Virus record (IMG/VR): IMGVR_UViG_3300025309_000420
Location: 1-33,755 of that record
DNA: 33,755 nt
Direction: 5' to 3' (one strand)
DNA from: a virus
This document shows, one piece after another, positions 439 to 32,504 of the stretch (position 1 is its first letter; each line of letters starts with the position of its first letter). The notes beneath the pieces are model-generated. The model was not told the DNA's origin. It saw only the letters and a list, made by a program, of their open reading frames with translations, and ran no database searches. The position numbers were made by a program, and so were the translations under genes.

Positions 439-486
439 TGGCGTCCCCAGGGGGATTCGAACCCCCGTTACCGCCGTGAAAGGGCG
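439..486 (-). tRNA. 3' half of tRNA-Glu(UUC), left attachment site (attL) of the prophage
   Basis: Read on the minus strand this is the 3' half of a tRNA: the 3' part of an anticodon arm with loop CTTTCAC (anticodon TTC, Glu), variable loop TAAC, a perfect five-pair T arm (GGGGG TTCGAAT CCCCC), the acceptor 3' strand ending in GACG, and an encoded CCA. Identity to a normal bacterial tRNA-Glu stops at the anticodon stem (about 486); the D arm and 5' acceptor strand are missing and AT-rich phage DNA follows. This is the standard product of integration into a tRNA gene, where the phage carries a copy of the 3' half. The duplicated core lies within about 439-486. The intact tRNA-Glu should sit just beyond the right edge of the window, next to the integrase. 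Confidence 0.9.
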
Positions 487-536
487 ATGAATATATTTAT
501 AATTCAAATATTTATACTACTTCTACTACAAATTTA

Positions 537-5074: not shown

Positions 5075-8000
5075 TTATGCGAATGATAACTCGCCATTCC
5101 TCTGCATCTCTTTAAACATAGGGTCAAGGGTTCGTGCAAGATTTCTTGCCTGTGTCCTTGTGAGCTTCAGGACATTGCCATCTTTGTCAACCACTACCTC
5201 AAAATTCATTTGTTGATGATAGGTAATATTATTTTCCGTTTTGCCTGAATTTGGCAGAGAGCCGTATCTGTTAGCATAATTAAGCCCTGCCTCCCCACCG
5301 ATTGCCCTGATTCCGTTATATTTATTGAGGATGCCTTCGCCGACTTGAGCAATAATAGGGACTTCATCATCCTTGAGATACATTCCTGAGTGTGCTTTTT
5401 TTAATAGACCGCCTTCATGCCAAAGTCCAAAGCCATGAAAAACATCACCGATACCTGGAAGACCAGATCCACCTCCTCCTAATCCAACAGCACTTTTTAA
5501 TCCTTCCCATGCATCAGTAAATATATTTTTCAACCCTTCCCATGCATCAGTAAATATATTTTTCAACCCTTCCCATAGATTACCAATCGCTCCTAAAAGG
5601 CTGTCTAATAACGCTTTTAATCCTTCCCATGCGCCGCCGAGAATGTTCTTAAATCCTTCCCATAGATTACCAATCGCTCCTAAAAGACTGTCTAACAACT
5701 GTTTCAGTCCTTCCCATGCACCACCGAGAATATTCTTGAACCCTTCCCATAGATTACCAATCGCTCCTAAAAGGCTGTCTAATAACGCTTTTAATCCTTC
5801 CCATGCGCCGCCGAGAATGTTCTTAAATCCTTCCCATAGATTACCAATCGCTCCTAAAAGACTGTCTAACAACTGTTTCAGTCCTTCCCATGCACCACCG
5901 AGAATATTCTTGAACCCTTCCCAGAGATTACCAATCGCTCCTAAAAGACTGTCTAACAACTGTTTCAGTCCTTCCCATGCACCACCGAGAATATTCTTGA
6001 ACCCTTCCCACAAACTCCCTAATATATTTTTCAGCCCTTCCCATGCACCTGAAAAAATACTTTTCAGACTCTCCCACAGATTACCGAACAAATCTCCAAG
6101 ATATCCAAATATGCCCTTAAGTGTTTTTCTCTCCGCTTCTTTTTTTACATTATTTGCATCCTGTTTCTGTTTCTCTGCCAGTATTGCCGCCTGTCTTGCG
6201 GATAGCAAAGCCTCTCTTGCCACTGCCCTGTCGGTTTCATTCACCGCACCTAAAAGTGCATCCTGTGCGTATTTCAATGCCTGCATTGCCCCTGATGTAT
6301 CAAGTTCTACTGTTACAGGTTTTGCCTGATCATTCCATGTATCAGTTATTGCTGATGTGATTTCCCCACCCACAAATAATGCTTTGATACCTTCCCAGAT
6401 ACCATTCACAATCTCATATATAAGTTCAGGGACTTTTGAAACAATTGTAATTATTGCATCTATGATTGATTTTATGATTGAGGGAAGAACTTTTCCTATC
6501 TGTGAAAAGAATTTTGGAATACCCTCTATGAGGGCATCTATAATATCTCCGACACTGCTTAAGAGCGAGGTTATAATTTCATATAAAATTGAGGGAAGAT
6601 TTACTATTATATCTTTTATGATTGTAACTATAGCCTTACCAAAACCTCTTGCACCATCTACAAGCCCTTTCAGCCCTGCCTTTAACATATCGGGTAACTT
6701 TCCGATATTTGAAATAAGCTCAATAATACCCCCAATTAATTTTCCAGCTTCTCCAAAAAGCCCGGCAATCCCCGATAAGCTGCCTGACGATATTGCAGAT
6801 AGGGCAGTTGTGTAATCTTGCATCCCTTCATACCATGCCTTTTGTTTTTCTGCGGAATCTTTAAATTGTCCGTCCCTCTGCTCCGATAGTTTTATGATTT
6901 CTCCTGTTACCCATTTTTCCACTTCAACCCTTTCTATTCCCATCTCTTCCCATACCTGTCCTTGCTCTACGAGTTTATTAATTTGTTCCTGATAATACTG
7001 ATCTGTTACAACTCCCGCCTCTTGATAGAATTGAGCATTTAAGGTAAGCAGTTTTTTTGCCTCCTCTGCGAGCTTCTCGTCATATTCCCTCGCTGCTTTT
7101 TTTGCCTTTGTAAGCTGGTTCCATGCGGCATGGCTTTTTTTAATTGCCTCTACATCATTATAAATAACTGCAGGCTTGCTTATTTCTGTTTGAAGTTCTT
7201 TTACTGAAGATACAGGGGAAATTTTTGAAACATCCACCCCGGCTATTTTATCGGCAAGTTTATCAACCCCGCCTGCTGTCCCTGCAACTGTTGCGGTGAC
7301 GGCAGACCATATATCGGTTAAATGTTTTTTTGTATCAGGTGCGGTATCAACAAGCCCCTCTATTGTCTCCACATATCCGAGTAATGATTGTTTGCCTTCA
7401 TCTATAATTATTCTTTGCTCATTCCATATTCTTTCAGAATCTTTTACTTGCTCATCAAGGATCCCCCAAAAATTGACAGTTTTCAAAAATCCTGTTATCG
7501 CTCCCCTGACCAAATTTAAAACCTTCCAGAGAGGGAGATATATTGCAGCTATGTATAAAGAGGCTAATCCGTATATAATTATTTTCCATCCATGGAAGGC
7601 ATCGCCGATTAATTTAACTGCGCCGTAAACCCCTTTTAATATTGTTATTCCGTTATCTCTCAGCCAGTTAAAACTGTCTATAATCCCTTGAGTCAAGACA
7701 TCGAGATATGCGCCTGCTATTGCTGCCCATTTCTGCCACCTTTCTCCTGACATGAATTTTTCCAGTTCATCGGATGCAGCTGCTATTTTTTCCGATAGCT
7801 GATTTGCCCATGGTCCCAGAATTTGTTTGAGCATGTCCCCAAGTGTCTGTTGAACGTTTGAAATGGAATTTTGAAGCGAGAGGAGTCCGCCATATCCTGT
7901 ATTCCTCAATGCCTCCGCCTGCCCTCCATAAGCCTTAGATATTCCATTTATCAGGTTCAATAATCTTTCATTTGAGCCGATTGCTCCTTTTACCTCAATC

Positions 8001-8503
8001 CCGTATCTTGAGAGTGCGTTTGTATCTGTGCCGAGGGTCTTTGCAACGAGGTCGGCGGCTGATGCTAAATCCATTCCCTTTGCTGATGCAAGGTCAAGGG
8101 TTGCCTTTGTGGCAGATTTGATTTGCCTCTCATCTTTCACAAAAGCGGCGATAAGGGATTCCGCCCCTATGATTGCATCACCCGCAAAAACGGTGCTTGA
8201 TGATAAGGATTTAGCGTAGGCGATAAGGTCTTTAGACGTATATCCTAAAGCTGTCCTTAACTGCGTTAATGCTTTTTCTCCCTTGTTTGATTCTTCAATG
8301 AATGATTTAATGCCAAAGCCAATACCGGCAATGCCTGCAAGCCCTATAAATGCAGATTTGAGGCTGAATATGGATTTTGATAACCATGTAGAAGCACTGT
8401 GGACGGCTTGAAATGACCTCTCTGCTGTCCGCTGAAAGGTCTGGACAATATGGCTTGCCCCATCTTTCGCCTTTAGTGTGAGTGTTATCGTTTTCTCTGC
8501 CAT
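5075..8503 (-). CDS. Tape measure protein with tandem Trp-repeat region
   Basis: This 1142-aa protein is the longest in the window. The N-terminal 250 residues carry the typical phage minor-tail/tape-measure signature (SAFIGLAGIAGIGFGIKSFIEES, LRTALGYTSKDLIAYAKSL, DLASAADLVAKTLG). Hydrophobic stretches near residues 290-340 and 590-740 would insert in the host membrane during DNA entry. Residues about 815-1000 are a tandem repeat: five 29-aa units (core NLWEGFKNILGGAWEGLK, then (Q/A)LLDSLLGAIG) flanked by shorter 11-aa WEGLKNI units. A Gly-rich linker and a C-terminal part with VPIIAQVGEGILN follow. It sets tail length; at the usual 0.15 nm per residue a tail of roughly 170 nm would be expected. 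It is preceded by the frameshifted chaperone pair, as in lambda G/T/H. Confidence 0.92.
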   Translation of the reverse strand: MAEKTITLTLKAKDGASHIVQTFQRTAERSFQAVHSASTWLSKSIFSLKSAFIGLAGIAGIGFGIKSFIEESNKGEKALTQLRTALGYTSKDLIAYAKSLSSSTVFAGDAIIGAESLIAAFVKDERQIKSATKATLDLASAKGMDLASAADLVAKTLGTDTNALSRYGIEVKGAIGSNERLLNLINGISKAYGGQAEALRNTGYGGLLSLQNSISNVQQTLGDMLKQILGPWANQLSEKIAAASDELEKFMSGERWQKWAAIAGAYLDVLTQGIIDSFNWLRDNGITILKGVYGAVKLIGDAFHGWKIIIYGLASLYIAAIYLPLWKVLNLVRGAITGFLKTVNFWGILDEQVKDSERIWNEQRIIIDEGKQSLLGYVETIEGLVDTAPDTKKHLTDIWSAVTATVAGTAGGVDKLADKIAGVDVSKISPVSSVKELQTEISKPAVIYNDVEAIKKSHAAWNQLTKAKKAAREYDEKLAEEAKKLLTLNAQFYQEAGVVTDQYYQEQINKLVEQGQVWEEMGIERVEVEKWVTGEIIKLSEQRDGQFKDSAEKQKAWYEGMQDYTTALSAISSGSLSGIAGLFGEAGKLIGGIIELISNIGKLPDMLKAGLKGLVDGARGFGKAIVTIIKDIIVNLPSILYEIITSLLSSVGDIIDALIEGIPKFFSQIGKVLPSIIKSIIDAIITIVSKVPELIYEIVNGIWEGIKALFVGGEITSAITDTWNDQAKPVTVELDTSGAMQALKYAQDALLGAVNETDRAVAREALLSARQAAILAEKQKQDANNVKKEAERKTLKGIFGYLGDLFGNLWESLKSIFSGAWEGLKNILGSLWEGFKNILGGAWEGLKQLLDSLLGAIGNLWEGFKNILGGAWEGLKQLLDSLLGAIGNLWEGFKNILGGAWEGLKALLDSLLGAIGNLWEGFKNILGGAWEGLKQLLDSLLGAIGNLWEGFKNILGGAWEGLKALLDSLLGAIGNLWEGLKNIFTDAWEGLKNIFTDAWEGLKSAVGLGGGGSGLPGIGDVFHGFGLWHEGGLLKKAHSGMYLKDDEVPIIAQVGEGILNKYNGIRAIGGEAGLNYANRYGSLPNSGKTENNITYHQQMNFEVVVDKDGNVLKLTRTQARNLARTLDPMFKEMQRNGELSFA
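5505..6060. repeat. Tandem 87-bp / 33-bp repeats in the tape measure gene
   Basis: Five 87-bp units encode the 29-aa repeat, flanked by 33-bp units encoding WEGLKNI-type hendecads. The 87-bp units are of two DNA types (one with Ala, one with Gln before LLDSLLG). An Ala+Gln pair of 174 bp is repeated almost exactly: the block starting at 5598 recurs at 5772, apart from a CATAG/CAGAG difference near the end. This indicates a recent duplication of the pair. Confidence 0.9.
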
Positions 8504-27660: not shown

Positions 27661-28380
27661 TCATAGAAATTTCGCTAAATCTTTTTTAATATAGAATTTC
27701 TTTTTATATTTTTTGCATAGCTCAATTGCCTTTAATCCAAAGTCTCTCCAATCAATCTCATCCCCCCTTGTGTCATAATTCCATTTACCAATTTTATATT
27801 CATCAACAAAATCATAAGTAACTTTGATTATGTTTAAAGATTGCTCTGGATTGATAACAGGCTCAAGACTTACCCATGTTCTTATACCTTTGCCATGTGC
27901 AATACTAAGTGCTGCCATTCTATCCAACGGTGGAGCAGCAAAAGGCTCATATTTCTGAGATTCTTTTTCATTTAAAAAAGTCAAAGTTGCCCCATACCAG
28001 CTTAGATGCGGATTTGCCGATAATAAATCAAAATCCCTCATACTCCTTTTTCCCGCTTTTGAAAGTATTCTTACGGTGATAAAAAATTTATATAATATTT
28101 CTATTGCCTTTCGTGTCAATAAATATACAGAATCAATAAATAAGTAGGGGTCGTGGGAAAAGCTCAAAAAAACTTCTCTGCCTGCATATTTAGGGGCTTC
28201 TAATTTCAAACGCTCTATAATATTCTCCTTTGGGAATGTCAGGAGAAATTTATCTCTTAACTGAAAAGTTGCGGCAGGAACATAACAATAAGAACACCCA
28301 TAATTACATCCCTTATACAAATTAACCGCCAACTCACAATATTCTCTCGCCTTCCCTTTAGGTTCGTAAATTACACTCAT
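27661..28380 (-). CDS. Radical SAM protein, SPL-like (239 aa)
   Basis: The N-terminus SVIYEPKGKAREYCELAVNLYKGCNYGCSYCYVP carries the radical SAM cluster motif CxxxCxxC (Cys25, Cys29, Cys32). Then FLSFSHDPYLF, VRILSKAG, WYGATLTF and WVSLEPVINPE follow the order of the spore photoproduct lyase-like (COG1533) group, barrel strands that bind SAM and the cluster. It should cleave SAM reductively to start a radical reaction; the substrate is unknown, perhaps nucleic acid. Phage copies of this group are common in anaerobes. An N-terminal fragment of a second copy survives at 20633-20752. It overlaps the 3D-domain gene by four bases. Confidence 0.85.
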   Translation of the reverse strand: MSVIYEPKGKAREYCELAVNLYKGCNYGCSYCYVPAATFQLRDKFLLTFPKENIIERLKLEAPKYAGREVFLSFSHDPYLFIDSVYLLTRKAIEILYKFFITVRILSKAGKRSMRDFDLLSANPHLSWYGATLTFLNEKESQKYEPFAAPPLDRMAALSIAHGKGIRTWVSLEPVINPEQSLNIIKVTYDFVDEYKIGKWNYDTRGDEIDWRDFGLKAIELCKKYKKKFYIKKDLAKFL

Positions 28381-29264: not shown

Positions 29265-29497
29265 TTCATTATCTCCATTGCCTTCTTGCCGATTTCTCTG
29301 ATAGTGCTGTGGTAAAGGAGCCTGTGTTCAGTGCAGCAAAAGACCTGGTCTATCCGCTTTGGGATAAACTCTCTCCTGCAGTTTAAGAGCTTGCATACAG
29401 GACGCTGTGACAAAGTATCTATGCTTATGTGTAAAGGCTTTTTATCCTCCTGATAGGTTTCTATACTGGACATATTTTTTTGTGCCATGGAAGTCAT
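29261..29497 (-). CDS. Small zinc-finger-like protein (78 aa)
   Basis: ATG at 29497 overlaps the upstream stop. The centre carries VCKLLNCRREFIPKRIDQVFCCTEHRLLYH: two Cys, then CC-x2-His and a further His, the 'C...C...f.p.r..qrfCs..cr..y' type of zinc finger in small phage proteins. The C-terminus is helical (STIREIGKKAMEIMK). A likely DNA- or RNA-binding protein of the early operon. Confidence 0.65.
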   Translation of the reverse strand: MTSMAQKNMSSIETYQEDKKPLHISIDTLSQRPVCKLLNCRREFIPKRIDQVFCCTEHRLLYHSTIREIGKKAMEIMK

Positions 29498-29976
29498 TTA
29501 TTAACCCTCTCCTTCATTTTCTCGAGAAGCTCCATCAATGCCTGAATGTCTTCCATAGCCTCTCTATAACAAACCTTATATTCCCTCTCAGTAATTTTGC
29601 CATCCTTGAGAGTTCTTGAAATCTCGGCGCAGGTCTCGCCGAATTCCTCATTCCATTTTAGAAGTGCTTTCAAAATATCTTGCTGAGATTCAAGACCAGC
29701 CGGCATTTTCACAGGCGGGAGAAACCCGAATCGGGCACAGAGCCAGAGGATCGGAATATAAGCCCGCTTCGGGTCAATCTTTTCTATTGCAGTAATTATC
29801 TTTTCAATCCTATCAAGCGGGTTTCGGGTGCCGGACTGAGTATAATCCTCATCAGTAGCGGGTGCCTCTTTCCACTTTTGAATGAGAGTTTTAGATTGAT
29901 GCAGTAAGTTTGCGACCTCTACCGCATCCCTTCGGATACATTCCTCAAGTGCCTCATAAGATTTCCAATTTTTCAT
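29494..29976 (-). CDS. CII-like phage regulator (160 aa)
   Basis: I take ATG 29976 (MKNWKSYEALEECIRRDAVEVANLLHQSKTLIQKWKEA) rather than the TTG 33 bases upstream. The pattern 'VAnlLhqSksliqKWkE....dedytqSGtrNPLDRIekIi.aie...p.ra..pI.WL...fg' is that of the phage regulatory CII (CP76-type) family: a helical N-terminal DNA-binding part, then a conserved central Asn-Pro-Leu-Asp-Arg block, then a helical C-terminus (LKALLKWNEEFGETCAEISRTLKDGKITEREYK). It is the first clear gene downstream of the leftward promoter. The predicted small RNA and its promoter lie just upstream on the opposite strand. Confidence 0.75.
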   Translation of the reverse strand: MKNWKSYEALEECIRRDAVEVANLLHQSKTLIQKWKEAPATDEDYTQSGTRNPLDRIEKIITAIEKIDPKRAYIPILWLCARFGFLPPVKMPAGLESQQDILKALLKWNEEFGETCAEISRTLKDGKITEREYKVCYREAMEDIQALMELLEKMKERVNK

Positions 29977-30033
29977 AATTCTATATCCCCAATAAAGATA
30001 TAATTCCAAAGCGGAACGGCATCATATAATTTA

Positions 30034-30062
30034 TTGACATGAATACTGAAAAAGGGTATAAA
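30034..30062 (+). promoter_or_regulatory. Consensus sigma-70 promoter facing the repressor (small RNA promoter)
   Basis: TTGACA (30034-30039), a 17-base spacer, TATAAA (30057-30062): -35 perfect, -10 five of six. Transcription should start near 30069-30071. No plus-strand gene follows for 360 bases; instead the transcript would open with the inverted repeat of the predicted RNA. Confidence 0.75.
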
Positions 30063-30069
30063 AACATAG

Positions 30070-30196
30070 AACACAAAAGCCCCAGGACACCGACTAAAGT
30101 ATCAAGGGGCTTTGTGTTTGCGGGGTATGGAAGAGAAGGGATATTCTCTGGAGCGTTGGCAAAGGATAACTTTGCCTTACTCCACCCCTTTTTTGT
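30070..30196 (+). ncRNA. Predicted structured small RNA with intrinsic terminator
   Basis: Starting at the promoter above, the transcript folds into: hairpin 1, ACACAAAAGCCCC (30071-30083) with GGGGCTTTGTGT (30106-30117), one bulged A; then a closing stem GGGGT (30122-30126) with ACCCC (30184-30188) that encloses hairpin 2 (AGAGAA 30132-30137 with TTCTCT 30144-30149) and hairpin 3 (GGAG 30150-30153 and GGCAAAG 30158-30164 with CTTTGCC 30170-30176 and CTCC 30180-30183). Six T follow (30189-30194), then GTTTTG. This is the build of a trans- or cis-acting sRNA of about 125-130 nt. It lies between the leftward promoter and the CII-like gene and is antisense to that leader, recalling lambda OOP. 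The same hairpin 1 read on the minus strand could work as a tR1-like terminator. Confidence 0.7.
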
Positions 30197-30253
30197 TTTG
30201 AAATAATTATGATTATAAATATCCTTAGTCTGTTTTCTGGATAATTTTAAATC

Positions 30254-30334
30254 AGGGCAAGGACTATCGGATGAGGATAGTCCTTTGGCTGGTAGCGAAA
30301 GGTGTCCTTGCCCTAATATGTTTTGCTGTTTTTT
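30254..30334. promoter_or_regulatory. Nested inverted repeats in the leftward leader
   Basis: AGGGCAAGGAC (30254-30264) pairs with GTCCTTGCCCT (30304-30314). AAGGACTATC (30259-30268) also pairs with GATAGTCCTT (30276-30285), sharing the GGAC/GTCC bases, so two folds compete. On the plus strand T-rich DNA follows (TTTTGCTGTTTTTT to 30334), like a terminator. On the minus strand this is the leader just after the leftward promoter. A 126-codon minus frame (30361-29981) covers the entire area but has no recognisable domain. Confidence 0.55.
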
Positions 30335-30370
30335 AGTTTTTAACCCTATCCTCATCGTCATGGAAAGAAA

Positions 30371-30414
30371 TATATACCATATATCGTAAACTTGTCAAGT
30401 GAAAAATACGATAT
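30371..30414 (-). promoter_or_regulatory. Leftward (lytic) promoter with inverted-repeat operator
   Basis: On the minus strand TTGACA (30398-30393), 16-base spacer, TATATA (30376-30371), transcription start near 30363. The region between repressor and early operon also has ATATCGTA (30381-30388) and its exact inverse TACGATAT (30407-30414), flanking the -35 element. This is the expected operator arrangement for repression by the protein encoded at 30434. The repressor promoter on the plus strand is less clear. Confidence 0.65.
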
Positions 30415-30433
30415 TTGGTAATTTATTTATTAT

Positions 30434-30838
30434 ATGATGTATAAAGGTTTTGTTGAGAGATTAGATTGGATTATTAAAAATAGATATAATGGTGTAAAAA
30501 GACGGTATGCAATCGCGTGTGGACTTCGTGATTCAACCTTACAATCTTATATTGAAGATGGCAGTTTACCCGGTCTTGAGAATCTTATAAAACTGGCAAA
30601 GGCAGGGGAAGTTACTATTGAATGGCTTGTAACAGGCGAAGATAAAGTAAAGAAAGAAATAGTTGCTGAAGAATCAGAGCAATATTATTCACAAGAGGAA
30701 AAGGAATACATAGAAAAACTTATACAGCTAATGAGAACAAAACAAGATAAGACAGTCATAGCGATTAAGCAAAACATAGATGCCTTTCTTGACAATCCGA
30801 ACAAAGAGGCAATAAAAAAAACAAAACTTGCAGGATAA
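30434..30838 (+). CDS. Short CI-like repressor (134 aa, no S24 domain)
   Basis: Residues 5-70 (FVERLDWIIKNRYNGVKRRYAIACGLRDSTLQSYIEDGSLPGLENLIKLAKAGEVTIEWLVTGED) match the phage CI N-terminal HTH: 'sstlqsYi.dGs.PgleNLikiAkag.vtieWLvtG'. The C-terminal part (YSQEEKEYIEKLIQLMRTKQDKTVIAIKQNIDAFLDN) is helical and probably oligomerises. There is no LexA/S24 peptidase, so RecA-stimulated self-cleavage is not expected. No ribosome binding site precedes the ATG; translation may be leaderless as for lambda cI from PRM. Near its 3' end is an A8 run (ATA AAA AAA ACA) from which a -1 slip would lead into the next Cys-rich frame. It faces the early operon. Confidence 0.82.
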   Translation: MMYKGFVERLDWIIKNRYNGVKRRYAIACGLRDSTLQSYIEDGSLPGLENLIKLAKAGEVTIEWLVTGEDKVKKEIVAEESEQYYSQEEKEYIEKLIQLMRTKQDKTVIAIKQNIDAFLDNPNKEAIKKTKLAG

Positions 30839-31044
30839 TTAGGTCTTATAAAAATCCCGCTGGAAAAGAAATTACAACAGTCGGATGCCTGTGGTTGTTA
30901 GGTATAGGTTGGAATAAAGTCCCACGAAAGACAAAAGATAATGTATTTTGTTTTAAGTGTAAAAAAGTAAAGTGTAACTGTGATAAAGGGTGTAAATGCA
31001 ATTATAATGAAAGTCAGTTAAACCTTTTTAATGAGGGCTTATGA
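30838..31044 (+). CDS. Cys-rich frame without ATG, possible -1 extension of the repressor
   Basis: In the -1 frame after the repressor, open from 30797 to TGA 31044: IIRSYKNPAGKEITTVGCLWLLGIGWNKVPRK, then VFCFKCKKVKCNCDKGCKCNYNE and ...LFNEGL. Eight Cys in a short stretch suggest a metal-binding knuckle. There is no ATG or GTG in frame; ATT (30838) or TTG would have to start it. However, a -1 slip on A_AAA_AAA in the repressor gene (about 30813-30820) enters exactly this frame with AAC AAA ACT TGC. Its stop overlaps the next gene's start (TTATGA), a normal operon overlap. Either a frameshifted fusion (about 200 aa), an unusual start, or a decayed gene. Confidence 0.5.
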   Translation: MRSYKNPAGKEITTVGCLWLLGIGWNKVPRKTKDNVFCFKCKKVKCNCDKGCKCNYNESQLNLFNEGL

Positions 31045-31442
31045 AACGAATCTTACTCTGCGTGATAATGGTATCTGTATTGATGGGATGTGCTGTGACA
31101 ACTAAGTCTATTTATCCAGGAACGGGGATAACATTTGACTTAAGTGAAGATGGAGTTCAAATACTTGGAAAGGTGATAGCATGTCAAGGGGGATATTGTA
31201 TAAATGACGAGACAGGTCGAGCGGAATGGCCTCTCAGTCTTGTTACTCCACCACCAGCTTCGACTTATCAGGCAGCCCTCCGTAAGAAGGCAGCGAAAAT
31301 CTACAATGTTCCTGAGGGACAGATAATTCTCGGTGAGATAGATGTCGGATTCTACACAGAGATAGTAGGAACAATTCGAGGCTGGACTGCGACATCAATT
31401 GTTGGCAGAAAAATGATTAAAAGTTTTATAGACAATAATTAA
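31041..31442 (+). CDS. Predicted lipoprotein 1 (133 aa)
   Basis: A short basic start (MKR), hydrophobic stretch and lipobox VLMGC with Cys17: MKRILLCVIMVSVLMGCAVTT. The mature part has GTGITFDLSEDGVQILGKVIACQGGYCINDETG, a Pro-rich link (LVTPPPAST) and RKKAAKIYNVPEGQIILGEIDVGFYTEIVGTIRGW. Probably attached to the inner face of the outer membrane or exposed at the cell surface. Next to the repressor and in the same direction, it is a likely lysogeny-expressed gene altering the host surface, by analogy with lambda bor. No family recognised. Confidence 0.7.
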   Translation: MKRILLCVIMVSVLMGCAVTTKSIYPGTGITFDLSEDGVQILGKVIACQGGYCINDETGRAEWPLSLVTPPPASTYQAALRKKAAKIYNVPEGQIILGEIDVGFYTEIVGTIRGWTATSIVGRKMIKSFIDNN

Positions 31443-31461
31443 ATCTTTTTATGGAGGGCTT

Positions 31462-31857
31462 ATGAAAAGAATTGTTTCTCTGATTGTTGTAATATCTTTT
31501 TTTGTATCAGGTTGTGCATCAATATATAATGCAGGAAGCCAGACAATATTGGCGAGGAGTGCGGATAATAAAGAAGGAGTAGCTGTTGAAATTACGACAT
31601 CAACAGGTGCATACGCTGCAAAACTTCCGGCTACCATCGTTGCTGAATCATCTCATAGAGGGATAGAAATTAGGTTGACTGATGTATGTTATGAGCCCAT
31701 TGGTTTAAATATTAACAAGAATATAACACCATCATTCTGGACAAATTTTTTGTTGCTTTATGGATTTCCTGTCGGTATGCTAATTGATGCAGGAACAGGT
31801 AAAATGTGGAAGTATGATAGCAATGTTATGGTTCATTCAAAAAATAAATGCAATTAG
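31462..31857 (+). CDS. Predicted lipoprotein 2 (131 aa)
   Basis: Signal peptide with lipobox FVSGC, Cys18: MKRIVSLIVVISFFVSGCAS. The mature region YNAGSQTILARSADNKEGVAVEITTSTGAYAAKLPATIVAESSHRGIEIRLTD, then NITPSFWTNFLLLYGFPVGMLIDAGTGKMWKYDSN, follows the pattern of a small bacterial lipoprotein group with 'sSfwgNil.GGl.G..iDa.tGa.wkY'. 'GMLIDAGTGKMWKY' is the most typical stretch. It follows lipoprotein 1 with a ribosome binding site (ATGGAGGGCTT) and probably shares its transcript. Likely a lysogenic conversion (moron) gene. Confidence 0.75.
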   Translation: MKRIVSLIVVISFFVSGCASIYNAGSQTILARSADNKEGVAVEITTSTGAYAAKLPATIVAESSHRGIEIRLTDVCYEPIGLNINKNITPSFWTNFLLLYGFPVGMLIDAGTGKMWKYDSNVMVHSKNKCN

Positions 31858-32063: not shown

Positions 32064-32082
32064 TAAACAATCCTCTCAATTC

Positions 32083-32103
32083 GGGGAGATTAACCGCTCC
32101 CTT
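32083..32103 (-). promoter_or_regulatory. Leader hairpin copy 1, before the XRE gene
   Basis: GGGAG - loop - CTCCC, on the minus strand AGGGAGCGGTTAATCTCCCC, 19 bases before the ATG of the XRE gene. It is nearly identical to the hairpin at 32443-32464 (GGGGAGCGGTGATACTCCCC) before the neighbouring minus-strand gene: same stem, same GCGGT at the 5' side, differing in three loop bases. Confidence 0.65.
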
Positions 32104-32115
32104 ATTATTCGCGGG

Positions 32116-32194
32116 CTATGTTCCCGTTGAAAGCCGGGGCTGCCTTACCACACCCGCCGATGGTAAGACCAAAAAAGGCGGGTGGTAGTCCCCG
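32116..32194. promoter_or_regulatory. Overlapping inverted repeats between two minus-strand genes
   Basis: CTTACCA (32144-32150) pairs with TGGTAAG (32161-32167), and CACCCGCC (32151-32158) pairs with GGCGGGTG (32177-32184). The two interleave, so they are either alternative folds or a compact H-type pseudoknot. GGGGCT (32136-32141) and AGTCCCC (32187-32193) can close the second fold into a longer hairpin. A 29-codon frame (32205-32116, MYTNGDYHPPFLVLP) covers the area but has no ribosome binding site. Confidence 0.5.
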
Positions 32195-32425
32195 TTAGTA
32201 TACATTTTCACAACGGATTCTTACTCCTCCGGAGTGAACATCGCATACATGCTGTATGTGACGGAACCACCCGTCACTGTCTTCTCCTGCACTTGTCCTG
32301 CAGGAGCAGACGTGGGACTGCCGGCAGTCCCACCCTGATAGATATTCCCCCCTCCCTTCTACTCTAGGAAGGGTATCTAATGCCCCTTCCCGTATTTCTT
32401 TACTGTTAAATATTATTTTTTTCAT
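32195..32425 (-). CDS. Small gene with probable frameshift at a G6 tract
   Basis: ATG 32425 has a strong ribosome binding site (AAGGAGGGAAT). The frame as it stands gives 76 aa, but after MKKIIFNSKEIREGALDTLP RVEGRG it turns Cys/His/Arg-rich. If one G of the G6 run (32352-32347) is removed, the other frame continues as NIYQGGTAGSPTSAPAGQVQ EKTVTGGSVTYSMYAMFTPEE and stops at 32221, a much more protein-like 67 aa. The tract could be phase-variable, slip in transcription, or be a sequencing or natural frameshift. No family recognised. The region is unusually GC-rich and full of hairpins. Confidence 0.5.
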   Translation of the reverse strand: MKKIIFNSKEIREGALDTLPRVEGRGEYLSGWDCRQSHVCSCRTSAGEDSDGWFRHIQHVCDVHSGGVRIRCENVY

Positions 32426-32442
32426 ATTCCCTCCTTATTTTT

Positions 32443-32464
32443 AGGGGAGTATCACCGCTCCCCT
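32443..32464 (-). promoter_or_regulatory. Leader hairpin copy 2, before the G6-tract gene
   Basis: AGGGGAG (32443-32449), 8-nt loop, CTCCCCT (32458-32464), 17 bases before the ATG at 32425. It shares stem and most loop bases with the hairpin at 32083-32103. Both precede the ribosome binding site of a minus-strand gene. Confidence 0.65.
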
Positions 32465-32504
32465 ATCGGTGCAGGCTTGATTGCCTCAATCCTCTCTTAT
32501 ATAT

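Follow-up and report, generated by a model that had tools for sequence, protein, structure and literature searches.

The prophage and its control region

The question raised by this locus is whether the segment that separates the lytic promoter of a prophage from its CII-like gene specifies a small RNA, on which strand its structure serves, and what such an RNA could do to the lysis-lysogeny switch. The window, i.e., the whole stretch of DNA analysed, is an IMG/VR virus record of 33,755 nt and represents a prophage of an uncultured bacterium. An identical prophage (0 differences in 9259 nt) is present in a MAG labelled Nitrospinota UBA9963, and a second viral contig (L002) that begins at 29726, downstream of the small-RNA region, also matches the window. 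All searches for relatives recovered the same prophage only. They comprised blastn against phages, tblastn against phages and plasmids, scans of viral contigs with the CII, repressor, radical SAM, integrase and leader ORF sequences, a CII scan of genome contigs, and a survey of 77 genomes from the phylum of the MAG by DNA, CII and PF06892.

The integrase and lipoprotein-like genes, a repressor-like HTH gene on the plus strand and a divergent control region are followed by the lytic genes on the minus strand. These begin with the CII-like gene, which is the first clear gene of the lytic operon, a small gene and an excisionase-like HTH_17 gene, and continue with the remaining lytic and structural genes. 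The two regulatory genes that border the control region are:

29494-29973, minus strand: CII-like regulator gene (Phage_CP76, PF06892, E 2.8e-11; phrog_101 CII-like, 1.8e-8)
30434-30838, plus strand: repressor-like HTH gene, transcribed away from the lytic operon (phrog_3037 transcriptional repressor, 2.3e-12; HTH_3)

Other parts of the prophage also drew attention. By eye, positions 439-489 (minus strand) resemble the 3′ portion of a tRNA gene (tRNA-Glu), running from the anticodon arm to the 3′ end; ARAGORN reported no complete tRNA. Past the integrase, the MAG contig (L003:1-25) ends in a 25-nt near-copy (96%) of positions 432-456 of the window. This repeat is probably the attachment-site core, with the prophage sitting in the tRNA gene. 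The early lytic region of this small temperate phage includes a gene for a radical SAM protein (27661-28380, minus strand; Pfam 4.9e-10). In the tape-measure-like protein (5075-8503, minus strand), a Trp-rich unit similar to NLWEGFKNILGGAWEGLKQLLDSLLGAIG recurs several times in frame. Two small tandem lipoprotein-like genes downstream of the repressor (31041-31857), with 34-nt start regions that are 88% alike (31018-31051 and 31439-31472), are candidates for lysogenic-conversion or superinfection-exclusion lipoproteins. Between an HTH gene and the integrase, about 400 nt (32080-32490) are rich in strong hairpins (e.g., 32281-32400, z -5.2 on the plus strand) and include two 26-nt copies that are 81% alike (32080-32105 and 32441-32466); a small minus-strand ORF (32425..32195) starts there after a good AGGAGGG site.

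A predicted small RNA on the plus strand

The elements of the putative transcription unit, all on the plus strand, are the following:

30034-30062, plus strand: sigma-70-type near-consensus promoter TTGACA-17-TATAAA, 11/12 matches (-35 box TTGACA, 30034-30039; -10 box TATAAA, 30057-30062; spacer 17 nt)
about 30069-30194, plus strand: predicted small RNA of ~126 nt, with a presumed start 7 nt past the -10 box and its end at the T6
30070-30118, plus strand: hairpin 1, AACACAAA-GCCCC / GGGGCTTTGTGTT (-20.4 kcal/mol; -25.7 kcal/mol on the minus strand)
30122-30188, plus strand: branched (Y-shaped) element (-29.1 kcal/mol; z -3.7 for 30120-30188)
30189-30194, plus strand: T6 tail (TTTTTTGTTTTG), terminator-like, directly after the closing stem

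Promoter-like sites with at least 11/12 matches and a spacer of 16-18 nt occur four times on the two strands of the 33.7-kb window, and the lytic promoter is another of the four. The RNA at 30070-30196 folded with -50.7 kcal/mol (z -4.4), a value reached by 0/200 shuffles, and z was -5.1 when the RNA was started at 30069. In the branched element, the closing stem GGGGT (30122-30126)/ACCCC (30184-30188) is stacked on an inner stem, GGAG/CTCC, and encloses hairpins at 30132-30149 and 30158-30176. Among the 101 runs of at least six T on both strands, the T6 at 30189-30194 ranked first by the stability of the structure closed directly before it (-28.8 kcal/mol); a pattern scan for terminators did not include this branched terminator in its list. 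The near-perfect promoter, three hairpins, closing stem and T6 tail described in the initial annotation were all confirmed. That annotation had also stated that no protein gene follows. This holds for the unit itself, where a 55-codon plus-strand frame that begins upstream of the predicted RNA start has no family match, but 240 nt past the T6 the repressor gene begins on the same strand, and a 126-codon frame on the opposite strand, spanning the whole lytic leader, had been left out.

The unit was then compared with chance expectation in 200 shuffled windows, requiring a promoter with at least 11/12 matches, a T6 30-210 nt later and a closed structure before the T6. Promoter and T6 pairs occurred 0.245 times per shuffled window before the structure filter. 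Their frequency was 0.005 per window with a closed structure of -15 kcal/mol or lower, and none was found in the 200 windows at -25 kcal/mol or lower, the threshold passed by the real structure. Since a comparable structure was absent from the 200 shuffled windows, the unit exceeds what chance would produce, with the reservation that shuffling does not reproduce natural inverted repeats. Its anatomy and these tests support well the proposal that a small-RNA unit occupies the interval from the lytic promoter to the CII-like gene, and we consider it likely that a plus-strand transcription unit exists at 30034-30194. At the sequence level the unit is real; it looks functional, is new in sequence and is of a kind already known.

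The hairpin loops suggested a role as a trans-acting decoy of the CsrA/RsmA type. GGA is present in 3/3 loops (permutation p 0.003, a motif chosen post hoc), and CsrA is encoded in 54/77 genomes of the MAG's phylum. Nevertheless, CsrA was not recognised in the prophage-bearing 2.0-Mb MAG, the five GGA counted are a modest excess over the 2.3 expected, two of those in the loops are partly paired, and Rfam gave no CsrB/RsmY match. The decoy idea is very improbable and is kept as a lead only.

The lytic leader opposite the predicted small RNA

The minus-strand transcript that the small RNA would face is defined by these features:

30369-30398, minus strand: lytic promoter TTGACA-18-TATATT, 11/12 consensus matches
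30375-30388 (TACCATATATCGTA) and 30407-30420 (TACGATATTTGGTA), no strand assigned: two inverted 14-bp operator-like sites flanking the lytic -35 box
29974-30361, minus strand: leader of the lytic transcript, the putative antisense target
30251-30317, no strand assigned: second structured element with 14-nt arms, ATCAGGGCAAGGAC / GTCCTTGCCCTAAT
29981-30361, minus strand: 126-codon open frame that runs the length of the leader from the predicted transcript start (coding doubtful)

With a transcript start predicted at ~30361-30362, the leader extends for ~388 nt before the CII-like start codon at 29973. The small RNA had been called antisense to this leader, and the complementarity is exact. In the second structured element, a 10-bp hairpin (30259-30285) competes with the long-armed structure. 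A T-rich stretch follows this element on the plus strand only, to about 30335, and a plus-strand transcript that passed the T6 terminator would meet it before the repressor gene.

The location of the plus-strand promoter raises the alternative that it is a CII-activated establishment promoter, as are lambda pRE and 186 pE, and drives the repressor gene after infection. In phage 186, CII made from pR activates pE for CI expression, and pR and pE are convergent (PMC8538670, PMC7708051). The promoter described here matches that arrangement in position and direction: it lies between the lytic promoter and a CP76-type cII, is convergent with the lytic promoter, and points toward the repressor gene, about 370 nt ahead. 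We regard this alternative as quite unlikely because a promoter with near-consensus hexamers ought to work unaided, direct repeats matching in at least 6/7 positions at 9-12 or 18-24 nt spacing were not seen around it (although this CII may bind a different kind of site), and terminator-like structures at 30122-30194 and 30251-30335 stand between the promoter and the repressor gene.

The 126-codon frame brings in another alternative, that the leader is a leaderless protein gene in the position of cro or apl and that the small RNA is its antisense regulator or an accident inside it. A frame as long was seen in 0/5000 shuffles of the leader, and the other two frames have 9 and 8 stops while this one has none before its end; by our own arithmetic on stop counts, the odds of such an open frame are a few in a thousand. 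Its start codon, at the predicted transcript start, is symmetric to that of the repressor about the operators, and its stop codon is located 8 nt before the cII start. However, its codon score is no better than those of the other frames of the stretch and differs from the usage of the phage genes, with first-position G (0.17) and purine (0.52) contents below those of all 34 phage genes. No convincing family or relative was found (one weak PHROG match, E 0.016), and the single-sequence AlphaFold model is poor (pLDDT 60, one C-terminal helix). A protein gene is rather unlikely here.

Strand of the fold

The leader itself is strongly structured. The region 30030-30365 folds on the minus strand with -109.6 kcal/mol (z about -8), and its windows rank 2nd and 3rd of 562 by folding z in a coarse window-wide scan of the phage. 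It is therefore conceivable that the structure belongs mainly to the minus strand, as a folded 5′ leader that acts as an attenuator before the CII-like gene, with the plus-strand promoter being incidental. Hairpin 30118-30070 followed by TTTTGTGTT would then end lytic transcripts unless these are antiterminated. The lytic promoter is the best-supported promoter of the region, and hairpin 1, in which A-tract and T-tract are symmetric, is terminator-like on the minus strand too (TTTTGTGTT after GGGGC), where it is more stable and has a good T tail.

With standard energies, the minus strand had much lower z values, both for the small-RNA stretch (-7.3 vs -5.1 on the plus strand) and for 30030-30365 (-8.5 vs -4.7), and it was taken as the candidate true strand. 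This was dropped when the difference disappeared with G-U pairs forbidden, which gave z values of -6.5 (minus) and -6.9 (plus) for the small-RNA stretch and -7.8 and -8.6 for 30030-30365. Since the strand preference vanished without G-U pairs, base composition was its source, and since both strands then behaved alike, folding alone cannot assign the strand. That the fold is equally good on the opposite strand had escaped the initial annotation. The T tails are more informative about the strand: the T6 of the branched element on the plus strand has nothing comparable on the minus strand, where the 30251-30317 element also has no T tail. The leader has no Rfam match. An attenuator as the main function of the structure is unlikely.

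Since the inverted repeats fold equally well on either strand when G-U pairs are excluded, the lytic leader may be what some of this structure serves. Hairpin 1 has T-rich sequence on both sides and could therefore act in both directions. In a combined reading, the inverted-repeat block specifies two regulatory RNAs, a terminated antisense RNA on the plus strand and a structured attenuator of the lytic leader on the minus strand, which would fold almost identically and recognise each other through complementary loops. We find this combination distinctly unlikely; if true, the dual block would be an RNA-level switch in a CP76-type lysis-lysogeny circuit.

A possible antisense brake on lytic transcripts

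The reading that we prefer, with a probability of roughly 0.4, is that the small RNA is transcribed toward the lytic promoter as a cis-antisense RNA and, through pairing and interference, damps lytic transcripts that leak from the prophage or arrive with an incoming phage. What was observed is sequence resembling a promoter and a terminator, the fold, the complementarity and the order of the genes. The anatomy of the unit is complete, with the promoter 7 nt before hairpin 1 and the T6 right after the closing stem. The target strand is a leader that originates at a promoter flanked by inverted operator-like sites, beside a repressor gene, and ends at the CII-like gene. Against this reading, the only relative found is the identical prophage, the terminator has a branched form instead of one plain hairpin, and without G-U pairs the two strands fold with equal significance, so that the structure may exist for the lytic leader rather than for the plus-strand RNA.

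We infer transcription, the RNA ends, pairing and the direction of the effect, and the antisense brake would work as follows. The plus-strand promoter, which overlaps no operator-like site and looks constitutive, would produce a ~126-nt non-coding RNA ended by the branched terminator and complementary over its whole length to the lytic leader, in the part that shortly precedes the CII-like gene. Pairing would begin at the complementary hairpin loops and be followed by cleavage of the duplex or early termination. The plus-strand promoter also faces the lytic promoter from a distance of about 300 bp, and the opposing transcription would add interference. The brake would act in cis, and in trans on a superinfecting phage: leakage of the lytic operon would be silenced in the lysogen, and transcripts of a superinfecting relative would likewise be cut or terminated. 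No Hfq or CsrA gene was recognised in the 2.0-Mb host MAG, which is possibly incomplete; a cis-antisense RNA would need neither.

Antisense RNAs acting on lytic or antirepressor transcripts of phages include OOP, P22 sar and aQ (PMC12197685), and STnc6030 of BTP1 acts in superinfection exclusion (PMC7067206). Phage antisense RNAs are well known as such, and the surprise is moderate. Judged from its sequence, the small RNA is credible as a phage regulator, though one of an ordinary kind, and probably helps to keep the lytic operon quiet.

Comparison with known phage RNAs

The initial annotation recognised no RNA family, and Rfam 15 agreed, giving no match at the gathering score and nothing near it or convincing at relaxed thresholds; Termite-leu, RefA9 and algC matches were far below the gathering score and were rejected. 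Stem-pattern scans for relatives of the small RNA returned matches attributable to chance. A similar branched element, GGGG...CTCCACCCCTTTTTT, that separates two unrelated phage genes in L033/L034 was selected by the pattern itself and was not counted as homologous. As an observation on that unrelated phage, L034:2054-2140 is a branched terminator-like element, GGGGTGGGG...CTCCACCCCTTTTTT, with two inner hairpins and the same closing sequence, the closing stem having been fixed by the search pattern; its position is intergenic, ahead of a DNA polymerase-like gene.

The likeness to lambda OOP, which had been suggested at the outset, is loose. In common with lambda OOP and OOP-BTP1, at the sequence level only, the predicted RNA is short and terminated, has its own promoter and lies opposite the early lytic transcript near cII. 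For OOP, the antisense overlap is with the 3′ end of cII (PMC7067206), whereas the small RNA (30069-30194) does not overlap the CII-like gene (29973..29494, minus strand) and covers the leader 5′ of it. In addition, the CII protein is of the unrelated CP76 type, and no sequence or fold relation with OOP was found. The small RNA is not OOP, whose positional definition fails here.

Its position is nearer to that of P22 sar, or of pRE and pE. Like sar, it is antisense to an early part of the lytic-side transcript. However, sar pairs with ant mRNA and blocks the translation start, while the present locus involves no antirepressor and the small RNA stops overlapping its target about 95 nt short of the CII start codon.

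Non-coding RNAs in the leader region of an immunity operon are also found in P1/P7 (c4 RNA) and P4 (CI RNA). Those RNAs arise by processing of a transcript from their target's own strand, while the small RNA has its own promoter on the opposite strand. A structured lytic leader between promoter and cII is reminiscent of lambda nutR-tR1 and HK022 put (cf. the lambda 6S leader), although the boxA/boxB or two-hairpin put arrangement was not demonstrated and no antiterminator gene was identified.

The plus-strand promoter shares with lambda pRE and 186 pE its place between the lytic promoter and cII, its orientation toward the repressor gene and its convergence with the lytic promoter. It differs from them in being near-consensus, in showing no CII-type repeats and in giving a transcript that is apparently terminated before the repressor. 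If transcribed, the unit would be an orphan antisense RNA in a lysis-lysogeny switch with a CP76-type CII, outside the well-studied enterobacterial phages, and would indicate that an antisense RNA can occupy the position where lambda and 186 have their establishment promoter.
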